Below are positions 6,610 through 52,138 of a stretch of DNA of 61,091 bases, piece by piece. The stretch is from Defluviitaleaceae bacterium (GTDB lineage Bacteria > Bacillota > Clostridia > Lachnospirales > WRAX01), in the NCBI GenBank assembly GCA_009780415.1, contig WRAC01000010.1, forward strand, positions 1 through 61,091, in the 5' to 3' direction. The notes below the pieces were generated by a model. It was not told the origin of the DNA. It did not search any database and saw only the letters and a program-made list of their open reading frames with translations. The position numbers and the translations under genes were made by a program. Every line of letters begins with the position of its first letter. Position 1 is the first letter of the stretch.

Positions 6610-6694
6610 TTACATCCTCCTCCGGTTCAATTTTAAATTTATTCTACCGCACAAACATGACAACAGCATGTCATATTATGTAAATATTTGCTTG

Positions 6695-6806
6695 ATACCA
6701 AGTTGCAATCTAAATCACACTAACTCCGGGCGGATGAGCCAGTACGCTCACGCTCAGGCCGGTTCATCCGCCCGTAGTAAGTGTTGCTTTGATTGCAACT
6801 TGGTAT
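6695..6806. repeat. 112-bp palindromic interspersed repeat, copy 1
   Basis: The element is bounded by perfect 16-bp inverted ends ATACCAAGTTGCAATC. The arms continue as an imperfect palindrome through a GGCGGATGA / TCATCCGCC inner stem. Its reverse complement matches copy 2 (40399-40510) at about 106 of 112 positions. It lies in the divergent region between the QueG-like gene and the aldolase gene, ending 3 bp before a -35 box. It has no coding capacity, so it is MITE-like or REP-like. Confidence 0.9.
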
Positions 6807-6809
6807 GAC

Positions 6810-14878: not shown

Positions 14879-17800
14879 ATGAAAAAATTTACTTTAATGA
14901 TGCTGGTTATGTTTGTGGTGATTATATTTACACCGGTTTTTGTTCATGCGGGTCTTTCTGCGGAAGTTAGGAATATGCCTGGAATGATTTATGACGGTGA
15001 TGAAGTAAGGTTAACGCTGGTATTTAGCAAAGATAAACCGGACGGGGACATTTATAATCTTATAATACATAGGCCGGAAATTACGTCCGACCGAATAGAC
15101 GTCAGAGGATTAAGAACTTTTAATTTTGAAACTCTTGATGACGATACATTGGAGTTGGAATTCACAGTACTGGTTTTCCGCGATGTGCCGGCTGGAAAAA
15201 TAGAGTTTACAATTGATTATCTCTATTCATTAGACCCGCATGACGTGAATAGGCAGCATAAGGTACAGACAATAGCAATAGATGTCTTAAACCGTTATTC
15301 GGGCCCCGTCGAATCAAGCGCGCTGTCCATTCAAAGCGGCAGCAGCACATTGACTGCCGGACACAGCAGCGATGCGGCTTTGGTTTTTATGAATATAGGG
15401 AATGAAAATATTGTTGGGACAACCATTGTCCCCGGCAGCAGCCAAGGAATAATCGTCTCCCCGACATCAAATATAACGGCGGGAAACCCGCTTAGACCCG
15501 GACAATCCAGAAATATAATCATAGGTCTAAACGGCGCAAACCTAGACAAGGAAGCAGGCGGTACAATAAACATACCCATCGACGTAACGTTCACGACTGA
15601 ATCCGGCGCGGTAGGTTCTGTGCGTACTTCTATCGCCGTCGAAATAAATCCCGGCGCAACCCCGCGGCCTTCGCCGTCGCCAACCCCGCGCCCCGATGTC
15701 AACCGCGAGGCCGACTTGAAAATGACGGGGCCGAACGAATACTTTACCGTGCGCCCCGGTGAATCCGTGGCCGTCGGTATAACCTACAAGAACGATTCGC
15801 GTAATAACCCGGCGCAAAACTTAACTTTTGCCCCGGAAATGATGGTTGGCTGGAGAAACGAATTTGTGCGGAGCAGTAACGTCCTGCTGTCGCCCGGGGA
15901 CGAACGGACATTTCATTTTGTCATCAATCCCCTGCCCGGTGTAAGCCCCGGCGTTTATGACGTTTGGTTCACTTATACATATACTTGCGTAAATAATAAG
16001 GAGTATACCGGCAGGGGATCGGTGAAGATAGAGGTTGAGGAAGGGCCGACGCATTCGCCCCTCCTTGTAATTGACGAATTTTATACGGACATAGATATCG
16101 TGCGCCCCGGCGACAACTTTATCGCATACGCAAATGTCGTTAATTTAGGCGACGCCGTGGCCGAAGCGGTTGAGGTCTCGGTGTCCTCTTCCGGCCTTGG
16201 CCCCAGAGGCATAACGCTGACCGGCTCCGACACGCTTATATTGCCGAACGTCTTACCCGGCGGTTACAGCCCCGCGGGCTTTACGATGAAGGCCCATGAG
16301 GATATGGCGTCGGGTACATATCCTATAGAGTTTAACGTGAAATTCGGGGATGGCAGATCCTTCAAAAGCACTTATTATCTTACAATAGCGGGCGAAACGG
16401 GCGCGGGTATACGCGGACAGTTGGAATCCGTTAAATTGGAATCTTCTCAGGGCCCCTTCAACGCGGGCGATTCCGCCGGAATATGGTATACATTCGCAAA
16501 CACAGGCATCGAAACCGCAAGGAACATACGTGTCAGCCTTGACATACCCACCGGGCTGGTTCCGACAAGTCCCAATATACAGCTTTTTACGGAAATTGTA
16601 CCGGAAGATGCATATGAGGTCGTTTTCCACCTTTCCCCGACTGAGGAATCACGTACGCAGACATACTTGGTCGGTGTAATTACCCAATACGAGACGGGGC
16701 GGCGGAACGCTGACGGAACCCCTGTTATAGAGAGCTTCACCCAATATGTGGGCATTAACGTAAGGCGGCCAGGGCCGACGCCAACCCCGGCGCCCGGCAC
16801 AGGCGTAAGCCAGGCGCGGCTTACGGGGTTTACTGAAAACCCGGAGGAAAGATTAAGCGCGGGCGAAAGCGGCACAATTTTTGTGACTTTAATAAACACC
16901 GGATCCAGAACCGCCACAAATGTCGTGGTTAAGGGAGAAACGCCGCAGGTGATAGTGCCTGTGTCCGCGCCGGCGCAAACAATACCGGAGCTTCGCGCGG
17001 GGCAGTCCGTAACACTTGAGTTCTCATATATGCCCACGTCTGAAGCAAGAACGATGACTTATGAAATAGGTTTTGCCATAGATTTTGAAACCGGCATAAA
17101 CAGGGAAGACGGCGTAAGGGTTACAAGCAGTATACAGCAGTACGGGCATATCGCTGTGGAGGGTGAGCCGGGTACCGGGGCGGCGCGGGCTCGGTTGCAA
17201 TCCGTTGGGCTGGAGACGGCCCAAGGCCCCTTTAATGCGGGAGACAGCGCGGAAATTACATATACGTTCACAAACAGAGGCGGCGAAACTGCGGGTAACG
17301 TACGCATTAGCCTTGTCATACCCCCTGAGATGGCCGCTGAATTAGTTCCTACAAGCCCCAATGTATTGCTCTTTCCGGAGATAGCGCCGGATGACGGACA
17401 CGAAATTACTTTCCTTCTTTCCCCAACCGAGAGTTCGCGTACCAAAACATACCTTGTCGGCGTTAATACGCTATACGAGACAGGACGGAGAAACGCCGAC
17501 GGTACCCCGGTTACGGAGAGTTTTACGCAATATGTCGCCATTAACGTTGTACGGCCGGATTCGGACTTGGCAACGGGGGTAAGCCAGGCGCGGATTATAG
17601 GCTTCACCGATAGCCCCGGGGAGAACTTGGGTGTGGGCGAAAGCGGCACGATTTACTTAACATTAACAAATACCGGAACAAGAACCGCCTCAAACATCGT
17701 AGTTAAAGGGGAAGCGCCGTCAGCGATAGTGCCCGCGTCCGCGCCCGCGCAAACAATACAGGAGCTTCGCACGGGGCAGTCCATAACCCTTGCTTTTACG

Positions 17801-19036
17801 TACATACCCACATCCGAAGCCAGAACAATGGCTTACGAAATAGGTTTTTCCGTTTCGTTTGAAAACGGGATAATATTGGAGGACGGCACCAGAGGCAAGG
17901 GCAGTATCCAGCAATACGGGCATATATACTCCAGAGGAACCGGGGTGTTTGGGCCGGACGGCGTGGACAGAAGCGTACCCAGGCTTATTTTGAGCGAGTA
18001 TAGGATTACAAGCACAAACGAGGAAAACCCAAGGGTGGTTTTGGCGGGGCAGGAGTTCGACATGTTTATGCGCGTCCAAAATACCCATCCAACCAAGACC
18101 GTAAGTAATATTATCGTCTCACTTACCATGCCGGAGACCACCGGAACGGCCCAACCTGTCAGCAATGTATTTTCGCCTGTTTCCGGCAGTAATTCCTTCT
18201 ACATTGCTTCGATAGAACCGGGCGGGGAGCAGGAAATCGACCTGCGCATGTTTTGCCTGAACAACGCCCAGGGCCGCAACTATGTGATGCGGATCCTGTT
18301 CGAGTACGAGGATTCGGATGGCGAATCCCATAAAGGCTCTCAGGAGGTGGGCATAACCGTGCGCCAGCCGGATAAAATGGAGCTTGGCCCCGTTAACTTC
18401 CCGTCGTTTATGAGCGTGGGAGATATGCATTTCCTAAGCTTCTACTTCCGCAACACGGGCTACGTGACCCTCAGGAACCTAAAGATAACCGCGGAAGGCG
18501 AGGGCTTTGACGGCTCCGGCGCGGTTTACATCGTGGGTAACTTCAATATGGGCGGTTTTGATTTTTATGACGGCTTTATAAGGGCGCTGGAGCCCGGTGA
18601 GCATACATTGAGAATAGTCGTTACATATGACCTGGATACAGGCGAACACGTAGTATACACGGAAGAAGCAACCGTAACCGTTTCGGAGGGCTTTGACTTT
18701 GATATGGGCTTCGACATGGGAATGGGCGATATGGGCGGAAGAATGATGATGGGCGGCATGGGCGGCGGTATGGTAGTTGTGGACAGCGGCGGCAGAGGTG
18801 GCGGCAGGCCCGGCGGCGGCTTTGACATGGGCGGGGGCATGGATATGTTTGGATTCGACGAACCCGCTCCCGAGGGCTTTGCGGCATCCGTTGTATATTG
18901 GACAAAAAGGGGTTTGAATTATGCAAACAGCAGAGTTTGGCCCTGGATTTCCGTGGGCGGCGTAATTGGCCTGGGCTTAACGTTTTTCTTTGTGCGCGGG
19001 GTAAAAATGCGCAGGGCGTATTCGCTGGAGACTTAA
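14879..19036 (+). CDS. giant extracytoplasmic CARDB/COG1361-like repeat protein with C-terminal membrane anchor
   Basis: The 1385-aa protein has a signal peptide (to about residue 25), at least eight Ig-like beta-sandwich domains, and one C-terminal transmembrane helix (WISVGGVIGLGLTFFFVRG) with a short basic tail. The domains carry the phrase GESxxIxxTxxNTGxxTAxNV typical of CARDB/COG1361 S-layer-like modules. Proline-rich linkers such as TPRPSPSPTPRP join some of them. A two-domain block of 258 residues is duplicated in tandem (16418-17940). Before the membrane helix lies a Gly/Met/Asp-rich stretch of about 60 residues (GFDFDMGFDMGMGDMGG and onward). It sits between the ATPase and permease genes, and the permease start is 1 nt after its stop, so it is likely the extracellular partner of that ABC complex. 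Adhesion, envelope assembly or substrate capture are all possible. Confidence 0.82.
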   Translation: MKKFTLMMLVMFVVIIFTPVFVHAGLSAEVRNMPGMIYDGDEVRLTLVFSKDKPDGDIYNLIIHRPEITSDRIDVRGLRTFNFETLDDDTLELEFTVLVFRDVPAGKIEFTIDYLYSLDPHDVNRQHKVQTIAIDVLNRYSGPVESSALSIQSGSSTLTAGHSSDAALVFMNIGNENIVGTTIVPGSSQGIIVSPTSNITAGNPLRPGQSRNIIIGLNGANLDKEAGGTINIPIDVTFTTESGAVGSVRTSIAVEINPGATPRPSPSPTPRPDVNREADLKMTGPNEYFTVRPGESVAVGITYKNDSRNNPAQNLTFAPEMMVGWRNEFVRSSNVLLSPGDERTFHFVINPLPGVSPGVYDVWFTYTYTCVNNKEYTGRGSVKIEVEEGPTHSPLLVIDEFYTDIDIVRPGDNFIAYANVVNLGDAVAEAVEVSVSSSGLGPRGITLTGSDTLILPNVLPGGYSPAGFTMKAHEDMASGTYPIEFNVKFGDGRSFKSTYYLTIAGETGAGIRGQLESVKLESSQGPFNAGDSAGIWYTFANTGIETARNIRVSLDIPTGLVPTSPNIQLFTEIVPEDAYEVVFHLSPTEESRTQTYLVGVITQYETGRRNADGTPVIESFTQYVGINVRRPGPTPTPAPGTGVSQARLTGFTENPEERLSAGESGTIFVTLINTGSRTATNVVVKGETPQVIVPVSAPAQTIPELRAGQSVTLEFSYMPTSEARTMTYEIGFAIDFETGINREDGVRVTSSIQQYGHIAVEGEPGTGAARARLQSVGLETAQGPFNAGDSAEITYTFTNRGGETAGNVRISLVIPPEMAAELVPTSPNVLLFPEIAPDDGHEITFLLSPTESSRTKTYLVGVNTLYETGRRNADGTPVTESFTQYVAINVVRPDSDLATGVSQARIIGFTDSPGENLGVGESGTIYLTLTNTGTRTASNIVVKGEAPSAIVPASAPAQTIQELRTGQSITLAFTYIPTSEARTMAYEIGFSVSFENGIILEDGTRGKGSIQQYGHIYSRGTGVFGPDGVDRSVPRLILSEYRITSTNEENPRVVLAGQEFDMFMRVQNTHPTKTVSNIIVSLTMPETTGTAQPVSNVFSPVSGSNSFYIASIEPGGEQEIDLRMFCLNNAQGRNYVMRILFEYEDSDGESHKGSQEVGITVRQPDKMELGPVNFPSFMSVGDMHFLSFYFRNTGYVTLRNLKITAEGEGFDGSGAVYIVGNFNMGGFDFYDGFIRALEPGEHTLRIVVTYDLDTGEHVVYTEEATVTVSEGFDFDMGFDMGMGDMGGRMMMGGMGGGMVVVDSGGRGGGRPGGGFDMGGGMDMFGFDEPAPEGFAASVVYWTKRGLNYANSRVWPWISVGGVIGLGLTFFFVRGVKMRRAYSLET
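16418..17940 (+). repeat. tandem duplication of a 774-bp (258-codon) two-domain unit
   Basis: Inside the giant protein gene, the block starting at 16418 recurs at 17192, an offset of exactly 774 bp that keeps the frame. Landmarks repeat at the same offset: GPFNAGDS codons at 16451 and 17225, and GVSQAR at 16802 and 17576. The two copies differ at many codons, so the duplication is not very recent. Confidence 0.9.
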
Positions 19037-21780: not shown

Positions 21781-21905
21781 TTAATCCCTTTCCCGAATCG
21801 TAACGCGTACCGTATCGCCCGGATATCTTTCAAGAAGCCGATTATATAGCACACTGAGCCGTCGGAGTTTTTCACGCCCATATTTACAACGCTTCCGTCA
21901 TAAGG
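21781..21905 (-). pseudogene. degraded fragment of a DUF1905 gene
   Basis: The minus strand encodes YDGSVVNMGVKNSDGSVCYI and KDI, nearly identical to the intact gene at 22864-23154. After a deletion of about eight codons the frame shifts, and it then continues as GDTVRVTIRERD plus a stop, matching that gene's C-terminus GDRVKVTVRERE. Only the last 40 or so codons survive. It is a partial, broken duplicate. Confidence 0.8.
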
Positions 21906-21942
21906 TTGTGTTACATTAGAACCAACTAAACGTCTGATACGC

Positions 21943-22815
21943 CTATACTGCAAGAGTAATTCTACTCCACTTTGTAAATATAGTAACTGGATCATAACCT
22001 ACTCTAAAGTAAAATTCATTACTGCCACCGGTCATGTGCGTTGCACCTAAAAGTTTTGTTCTTCGTACAAGTTCGGAAAGAGCCGCTGCCGCGAGTCCTT
22101 TTCTTCTATGCTTAGGTTCTGTGCAAAACGGTTCCAGATATGCTAATTTATTTTCGGGTATATACCACATCATAGCATAGCAAGCATAATCACCTTTATC
22201 GTCAACAATTACCACGTCCAACTCAGGAGTTCTGTTCGGAGCAGTATCAAAACGCCGTACCGTTTCAATGCCACCCTCGGAATCACCTTGTTGGTCGAAA
22301 CCTCTCCAAGTAGCGTTCTGTAATTCTAAACGGTCACAATCAGCTAAGGGTTTAAAATGGTATCCTTCCGGTAATTTATAATTGAGCGTGTTCTTTGAAA
22401 AATCGTAAATCCCTTCTTTATGTTCACAAATTAATTCGTATCCTTGCCTTTTTATTTCATCAATTATACTTTTTTGGCTGCTGTAAACGCAAAGATGCAA
22501 ACTTCCATCTTCTTTGCTTAGTCTTTCATGTGAATATTCTATCATTTTTGTAATAATTACTTCATAACCGGGTGTTAAATTGAAATATGCCTCTCCGATT
22601 TTGCTGTCATACCAACAAAACCCGACAATACATCCGTCATCCTCCCATATAGTATTTCTATGGTCTTGTGTATGGTCAGTCCAATACAGTAATTGTGAAT
22701 ATTCAAAAGCTGTTGCCGGCTTCCCGTTGCGCCAGTCTATTTCGTAGTTTTTAATCATAAAACGATATACTTTTTCAAAATCAACTAAACAACGGTAGGG
22801 TCTTTGAATTATCAT
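21943..22815 (-). CDS. GNAT-family N-acetyltransferase (two-domain)
   Basis: The 290-aa protein has an N-terminal GNAT-like half (RPYRCLVDFEKVYRFM ... IVGFCWYD ... GYEVIITKMIEYSHERL) and a C-terminal active-looking GNAT half with the acetyl-CoA pyrophosphate loop CTEPKHRRKGLAAAAL (about 235-250). It would transfer an acetyl group to an unknown amine. The start has a TTGGAGGTACAG ribosome site. It lies between a broken and an intact DUF1905 gene, all on the minus strand. Confidence 0.87.
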   Translation of the reverse strand: MIIQRPYRCLVDFEKVYRFMIKNYEIDWRNGKPATAFEYSQLLYWTDHTQDHRNTIWEDDGCIVGFCWYDSKIGEAYFNLTPGYEVIITKMIEYSHERLSKEDGSLHLCVYSSQKSIIDEIKRQGYELICEHKEGIYDFSKNTLNYKLPEGYHFKPLADCDRLELQNATWRGFDQQGDSEGGIETVRRFDTAPNRTPELDVVIVDDKGDYACYAMMWYIPENKLAYLEPFCTEPKHRRKGLAAAALSELVRRTKLLGATHMTGGSNEFYFRVGYDPVTIFTKWSRITLAV

Positions 22816-22863
22816 ACTGTACCTCCAATAAATATTTATTTTACAATAAGAATAACACGAAAA

Positions 22864-23154
22864 TTATTCCCGCTCCCTAACAGTCACTTTTACCCTATCC
22901 CCCGCCTGCTTCCCAATCTTCGCCCGTATATCTTTGCGTATGCCAATAATATAACACACCGACCCATCCTCATTCTTCACACCCATATTTACAACGCTTC
23001 CGTCATAAGGTTCTCCGTCAAATGTGGCGTGAACCTTAACCCTGCCTTTGCCGAACTCCGCGCGTATATCATAAGGGAAGGCTGCATACGCGCCGCCTTT
23101 ACCCGTTTCGGCGGAATTTATAACCGCTTCGTATATATAAACTTTATCGTTCAA
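22864..23154 (-). CDS. DUF1905 domain protein
   Basis: The product is a compact beta-barrel of about 96 residues (VYIYEAVINSAE ... GAYAAFPYDIRAEFGKGRVKVHATFDGEPYDGS). It matches the DUF1905 pattern, including IRKDIRAKIGKQAGDRVKV. The function of the family is not known; it often accompanies YdeI/OmdA-like proteins. The start is set at TTG (23152-23154), which has a GGGAAGG site 8 nt upstream. ATG codons further upstream lack ribosome sites. A TATAAT (minus strand, about 23175) precedes it, so it may have its own weak promoter besides reading through from the methyltransferase gene. Confidence 0.78.
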   Translation of the reverse strand: MNDKVYIYEAVINSAETGKGGAYAAFPYDIRAEFGKGRVKVHATFDGEPYDGSVVNMGVKNEDGSVCYIIGIRKDIRAKIGKQAGDRVKVTVRERE

Positions 23155-39358: not shown

Positions 39359-39378
39359 AGCGAGTATTTGTCAAAACA

Positions 39379-39408
39379 CGGGGAGCCGGGCATTAGCCGG
39401 CTCCCCGG
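39379..39408 (+). terminator. intercistronic hairpin after the Opp binding-protein gene
   Basis: A perfect 11-bp stem CGGGGAGCCGG/CCGGCTCCCCG with a 7-nt loop and no T-run. It probably stabilises the upstream mRNA rather than ending transcription. Confidence 0.6.
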
Positions 39409-39436
39409 TAATAAAACGCTGGGAAGTAGGTTTATA

Positions 39437-40395
39437 ATGGAACATCTGCTTTCGGTCAAAGGTCTCAGGACGGAGTTCATGACAAAAAAGGGAATCGTCG
39501 CCGCTGTGGACGGGGTGGATTTTGACGTTAAACGCGGAGAGATTTTAGGCATTGTCGGTGAATCCGGCTGCGGGAAAAGCGTTACCAGCCTGTCCATCCT
39601 CAGGCTTTTGCCGGAAAACGGGCGTGTTGCACATGGCAGTATCGAGCTTGAAGGTAACGACCTTTCGCAGTTATCAGAGAAAAGGATGTGCAATTTACGG
39701 GCAATAAGATTGCCATGATATTCCAGGACCCGCTTACATCGCTGAACCCCACAATGACTATAGGCGAGCAGATGATTGAACCGTTTGCCGTACACAGCGG
39801 ATATACCAAGAAACAGGCAAAGGAAGCCGCGCTGGATATGCTGGGGCGTGTCGGCATATCCTCCCCGAAACGCCGGATGAGGGAATACCCCCACAACCTG
39901 TCGGGGGGTATGCGCCAGCGGGTGATGATCGCGATGGCTTTGTCGTGCAGCCCTGTCCTGCTTATCGCCGACGAGCCAACTACCGCTCTCGACGTATCCA
40001 TCCAGGCTCAGATACTTGAGCTTATACTTAAATTAAGGGAAGATACCGGCACGGCTGTGCTTCTGATAACGCACGATATGGGCGTGATCGCCGGGATGGC
40101 GGACAATGTGCTTGTGATGTATGCCGGGAAGAGTGTGGAGTATGCCTCGGCGGCGAACATATTCAACTCGCCTAAGCACCCCTACACGGAGGGGCTGTTG
40201 AAATCAATCCCGCGCATGGATACGAACGTCGATACCCTCCCCGTTATAGAGGGTACGGTGCCCAACCAGTATAATATGCCGCCGGGATGCCGGTTCCACA
40301 CCCGCTGCGCTTATAAAACAAAGCGGTGCGAAACGGATATTGTTGGAGATTATATGTCGGGCGAAACAAAAGTCGCATGTTTTAAATACGCATAG
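39437..40395 (+). pseudogene. Opp/Dpp ATPase (D subunit), single-base frameshift
   Basis: The gene encodes an OppD/DppD ATPase in two frames. The first, from ATG 39437, holds Walker A GESGCGKS and ends out of frame after KRMCNL. The second resumes with GNKIAMIFQDP, signature LSGGMRQR, Walker [13 protein letters not shown] and the C-terminal Cys-rich GCRFHTRCAYKTKRC. Restoring one G in the GGG run at 39699-39701 rejoins them into about 319 aa. It is the second frameshift in this operon. The palindromic repeat copy 2 starts 4 nt after its stop. Confidence 0.85.
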
Positions 40396-40398
40396 GTA

Positions 40399-40510
40399 AT
40401 ACCGAGTTGCAATCAAAGAAACACTTACTCCGGGCGGATGAGCCGGCCTGAGCGTGAGCGTACTGGATCATCCGCACGGAGTTAGTGTGATTTAGATTGC
40501 AACTTGGTAT
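40399..40510. repeat. 112-bp palindromic interspersed repeat, copy 2
   Basis: It has the same 112-bp length as copy 1 but the opposite orientation. The inverted ends are ATACCGAGTTGCAATC and GATTGCAACTTGGTAT, so one end base differs. It lies between the two ATPase genes of the first Opp operon, 4 nt after one stop and 14 nt before the next reading frame's earliest start. Confidence 0.9.
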
Positions 40511-40524
40511 AAGATTCGCGGAAG

Positions 40525-52026: not shown

Positions 52027-52039
52027 CCATTTTAACCTC

Positions 52040-52109
52040 ATACCAAGTTGCAATCAAAGCAACACTTACTCCGTGCGGAGTTAGTGTGATTTAGATTGCA
52101 ACTTGGTAT
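52040..52109. repeat. 70-bp palindromic interspersed repeat, copy 3 (internally deleted)
   Basis: It has both 16-bp inverted ends (ATACCAAGTTGCAATC and its complement) and the first 34 and last 32 bp of the 112-bp form, but lacks 42 bp of the centre. It is in the same orientation as copy 2. It lies between the arabinofuranosidase gene and the next promoter, 14 nt after the stop. Confidence 0.9.
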
Positions 52110-52138
52110 CACTACATAAAAACATCCAAAATTATTCA

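Follow-up and report, generated by a model that had tools for sequence, protein, structure and literature searches.

The three palindromes of the window, by which we mean the whole stretch of 61,091 nucleotides analysed here, are very probably non-autonomous MITEs whose movement would depend on an IS630-type transposase acting in trans, from a group that duplicates the three-nucleotide target TNA. The initial annotation had read them as MITE-like elements from the window itself, and this reading holds over the whole genome: about 30 copies are found at unrelated sites, with inverted ends, target duplications and no genes, and an autonomous IS with identical ends exists in another bacterium.

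All three palindromes lie where they had been placed, and all are intergenic as described. Copy 1 (6696..6805, forward strand) is a 110-bp element of the form TACC...GGTA and belongs to the full-length subfamily. Comparison of its flanks gives the target duplication TGA on the left (6693..6695) and on the right (6806..6808), and the terminal inverted repeat TACCAAGTTGCAATC, which is also the sequence of both ends of a Desulfatibacillum IS630 element (see below), occupies 6696..6710 on the forward strand and 6791..6805 on the reverse strand. Copy 2 (40400..40509, reverse strand) is likewise 110 bp long and is flanked by TAA at 40397..40399 and 40510..40512. With the ends originally drawn the two full copies measure 112 bp, and the alignment bears out their identity of 95% and their opposite orientation. 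Copy 3 (52041..52108, reverse strand), flanked by TCA at 52038..52040 and 52109..52111, is a 68-bp form with an internal deletion, 70 bp by the original ends, in which the tip of the hairpin is deleted. The inverted ends of 16 bp are also confirmed: each of the six ends shows the 16-mer ATACCAAGTTGCAATC with 0-1 mismatch; allowing up to 3 mismatches, the window has 6 matches to it versus 0.5 expected in shuffles. On folding, all three copies form long hairpins, with z from -9 to -12. Two further repeats are observed elsewhere in the window. At 21815-23012, two 93-bp stretches, 81% identical and 1.1 kb apart, resemble a portion of a gene duplicated in tandem, and within the ORF 14879-19036 (1,385 aa) a direct repeat of 300 bp (16799-17872; 77% identity, spacing 774) is a repeated domain.

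The target duplication of the MITEs is the 3-bp TNA, and the element is TACC...GGTA. Of 28 copies, 23 have the same 3-mer on either side, the TNA form is present in 50 of the 56 flanks, and the middle base is common to both sides in 26 (binomial p about 2e-9). These flank statistics place the element TACC...GGTA inside a duplicated TNA, so that the A and the T at the limits first assigned to the copies belong to the target sequence. The single bases that had been noticed on both sides of each copy (G/G, A/A and C/C) are real, being the middle of TGA/TGA, TAA/TAA and TCA/TCA respectively, but the duplication is one of 3 bp; the flanking 3-mers thus replace the duplication of 1 bp that had been suggested.

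The family is by no means restricted to the three copies of the window; the refuting case named in the initial annotation, in which just these three would exist, does not hold. In the assembly that contains the window (85 contigs, 2.53 Mb in all), a search with the 112-bp sequence detects 18 full-length copies of 110 bp, and matches to the end sequence with at most 2 mismatches number 59, versus 0 for the reversed control. The full copies have a mean divergence of 2.3% from their consensus, and two of them, located at different sites, are exactly the consensus, which points to a recent spread. The 68-bp deletion form is represented by two near-identical copies, copy 3 of the window and one on contig C2; their insertion sites are unrelated and their duplications differ (TCA in the window, TGA on C2), so that this form has in all likelihood transposed in its own right. 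Independent insertion is shown for at least two size forms. Copies of 132 and 162 bp with the ends TACCATSTTGCAATC make up a second subfamily, and there are also end-to-end derivatives of 35-47 bp, which still mostly have perfect 3-bp duplications. Nearly all copies have the 15-bp ends at both termini, and the sizes in the genome range from 35 to 162 bp, far below the room needed for a transposase gene.

A transposase with matching ends, which the initial annotation had proposed looking for, is not found in the own assembly but is present in Desulfatibacillum alkenivorans. When about 85,000 species genomes are scanned for ATACCAASTTGCAATCTAA, 19 stretches are obtained, two of which are contig ends in this organism. 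The element pieced together, with additional end matches in the organism, from contig ends that share an identical 239-bp overlap is 1,135 bp long and has a perfect TACCAAGTTGCAATC at both ends, equal to the MITE ends in 15 of 15 bp. Two left ends and two right ends each show TGA and TCA, giving these duplications for two copies. The transposase is encoded in two frames that overlap and carry the domains HTH_33 and DDE_3; when joined, the frames score 194.8 bits against the NCBIfam IS630 model (cut-off 100). Desulfatibacillum is a very distant bacterium, and the real partner of the window MITEs is one that we infer.

The same combination of ends and flanks recurs among relatives of this element, as the related IS630 plasmid elements mostly begin with TAC and have TNA flanks. 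The duplication is TCA for the Acaryochloris and for the Deinococcus element, TTA in four copies of ISAli3, TTA and TAA for Sinorhizobium elements, TGA for the Azospirillum argentinense element, and TTA for an IS630 element in a genome of the same order as the window's; the Caballeronia element begins with TTC and has TTA flanks. Such ends are not recognised for the plasmid elements L200, L201 and L202 or for L213. In Sinorhizobium meliloti AK21, two copies on pSymB have uninterrupted counterparts in RMO17 and 1021, and these empty sites keep a single TAA (RMO17) and a single TTA (1021), which proves the 3-bp duplication for that element and excludes a TA duplication there. The empty site of ISAli3 is a diverged sequence, with CTG in place of TTA. 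The TNA rule is not new, since the three-nucleotide repeats TGA, TAA and TCA, with the ends TACGGACTCCGATTAA, have been published for Deinococcus IS630 elements (PMC10017437).

Putting these together, the MITEs would carry just the two ends TACCAAGTTGCAATC that the transposase recognises, around a self-complementary filler. A transposase of the IS630 family, from the TACC-ended and TNA-duplicating group, would be supplied in trans and excise or copy these ends; the ends would be joined to a staggered cut at T-N-A, and the repair of the gaps would then yield the TNA duplication on both sides. Both the movement of the window copies by such a transposase and the exact chemistry are presumed.

As to the host genome, DDE_3 is matched once, by an IS630-type relic that is frameshifted, has no end-like sequence and takes up the start of contig C27 (L186:1-911). 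The Desulfatibacillum transposase has no match in the own assembly at E <= 1e-12. The genome holds only fragments of IS5-, IS982-, ISAs1-, IS1182- and IS630-type transposases, none of them near matching ends, and the IS5_3, IS982, ISAs1 and IS1182 fragments are rejected as partner, there being no end-like sequences in their loci. These four are found on contigs C50, C5, C26 and C6 (L069, L072, L079 and L076), several of them near contig ends, which suggests that multi-copy IS elements broke the assembly. The source transposase has presumably been lost or not assembled, and may belong to a multi-copy IS missing from the contigs.

Three other explanations have to be weighed. Some IS5 groups, such as IS1031, also make TNA duplications, and the 3-bp duplication by itself is compatible with movement by an IS5-family transposase, of which the genome has a partial frame on contig C50 (DDE_Tnp_1; NF033580, below cut-off). 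However, the locus of this relic shows no end-like sequence, the element with the identical 15-bp ends is of IS630 type, and TACC ends together with TNA recur among the relatives of that element, which leaves IS5 as a quite unlikely mover. It is most improbable that the true duplication is TA, with an element CC...GG for which TNA would be only a preferred flank. Indeed TA directly adjoins CC and GG at both ends, and canonical members of the IS630/Tc1/mariner family including ISY100 duplicate TA (PMC2170065); but a flank preference does not predict that N is equal on both sides in nearly all copies, and the empty sites of Sinorhizobium hold one TNA, not TNATATNA.

The palindromes might also be kept as RNA or DNA structural signals, whatever their origin, for example as a terminator, for mRNA processing or as REP/BIME-like sequences. 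The long and stable hairpins and the intergenic location of all three window copies speak for this, as does the place of copy 2 between two genes for oligopeptide-type ABC ATPases of an ABC transporter cluster. Against it, the window gives no Rfam match at gathering thresholds, the sole terminator-like match is a weak stem of 5 pairs inside copy 2, and the two full copies contain no promoter-like site, so that the Rfam, terminator and promoter scans give no sign of a host function. Moreover, the hairpin shape is usual for MITEs, and it is the ends and the TNA flanks that are kept among the subfamilies while cores and lengths vary. We regard conservation as structural signals as very unlikely. 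In a joint transcript of the two ABC ATPase genes, copy 2 would contribute an additional hairpin, which could affect expression. The ATPase gene upstream of copy 2 (39368-40395) is apparently split into the ORFs 39368-39718 and 39688-40395, with a Walker A-like repeat in the first frame and the remaining domain in the second, which suggests a frameshift or a sequencing error.

Among known systems, the nearest in kind is RUP with IS630-Spn1, and the copies form a new MITE family whose type is familiar. RUP makes a TA duplication. Like the MITEs described here, RUP is short (about 107 bp), gene-less and dispersed in many copies, with inverted ends similar to an IS630-family element and movement in trans proposed (PMC3049150). 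The two differ in host, and the proposed IS partner of RUP is resident while none is found here; the likeness is one of description. The group of TACC- or TACG-ended elements with TNA duplications, namely ISAli3, ISDrpg7/8 of Deinococcus radiopugnans and the Desulfatibacillum element, has the TAC(C/G) termini and the TNA of the MITEs. Its members carry a transposase gene, with about 1.1-1.2 kb for the measured ones, whereas the window MITEs carry none and have the ends alone in common with them. Canonical IS630/Tc1/mariner elements such as ISY100 have a DDE transposase of a related family and cut-and-paste between inverted ends (PMC2170065), but duplicate the 2-bp TA instead of the 3-bp TNA of the MITE group. 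The Nezha-type MITEs of cyanobacteria are, by the passage on them in PMC3049150, short and non-autonomous, and are proposed to be moved by ISNpu3-like IS. The cyanobacterial MITEs with the ends of the window copies (L141, L147 and L153) may or may not be Nezha.

We then present an overall view of the distribution of the ends. Of 16 genomes from the same family, 10 have them, and so do just a few of the further genomes sampled across the order and the class; searches for the ends across the class and the order give, outside the family, scattered hits only and no autonomous partner, and the IS630 matches in same-family genomes have no ends of the TACCAAGTTGC type. Related MITEs of 65-206 bp are identified in same-family genomes, in cyanobacteria, in a Rickettsia MAG and in a gammaproteobacterial MAG; they agree in their TACCA ends and, for the most part, in having TNA flanks, but not in their cores. 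A paper on termite-gut MAGs mentions the Defluviitaleaceae, and four of the family genomes presumably originate from termite gut. Among the cyanobacteria, Nostoc mirabile and Scytonema (L144:4735-4753 and L150:777-795) have a single MITE-like end sequence immediately upstream of similar and identically ordered genes, as though it had been inherited at one site from an insertion of old date. In viral contigs, mostly single unpaired matches to TACCATCTTGCAATC are found, and none forms an inverted pair in range. Of the 39 viral contigs that contain the 18-mer (L080-L118), the majority have one such unpaired copy, which may be a coding motif conserved among related phages and not a transposon end. 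A literature search for the end sequence returns unrelated hits only. It is a tentative and rather doubtful proposal that a MITE lineage sharing these 15-bp ends has extended across the bacterial family, mainly termite-gut MAGs, and into distant phyla, with the transposase missing from the host that has most copies.

On the whole, the analysis defines precisely where the elements of a MITE family from an uncultured lineage end and which target rule they follow, and ties TACC ends and TNA duplication to a subgroup of IS630, with proof from empty sites. Where annotation presumes that IS630 elements duplicate TA, the ends of elements like these would be set wrongly, and such hairpins, one of which lies between transporter genes, are not to be read as riboswitches or terminators. 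If the spread across phyla is true, then together with the forms of 35-47 bp it would suggest that mobility is limited almost only by the ends, and it would further suggest repeated cross-mobilisation by foreign IS630 transposases.
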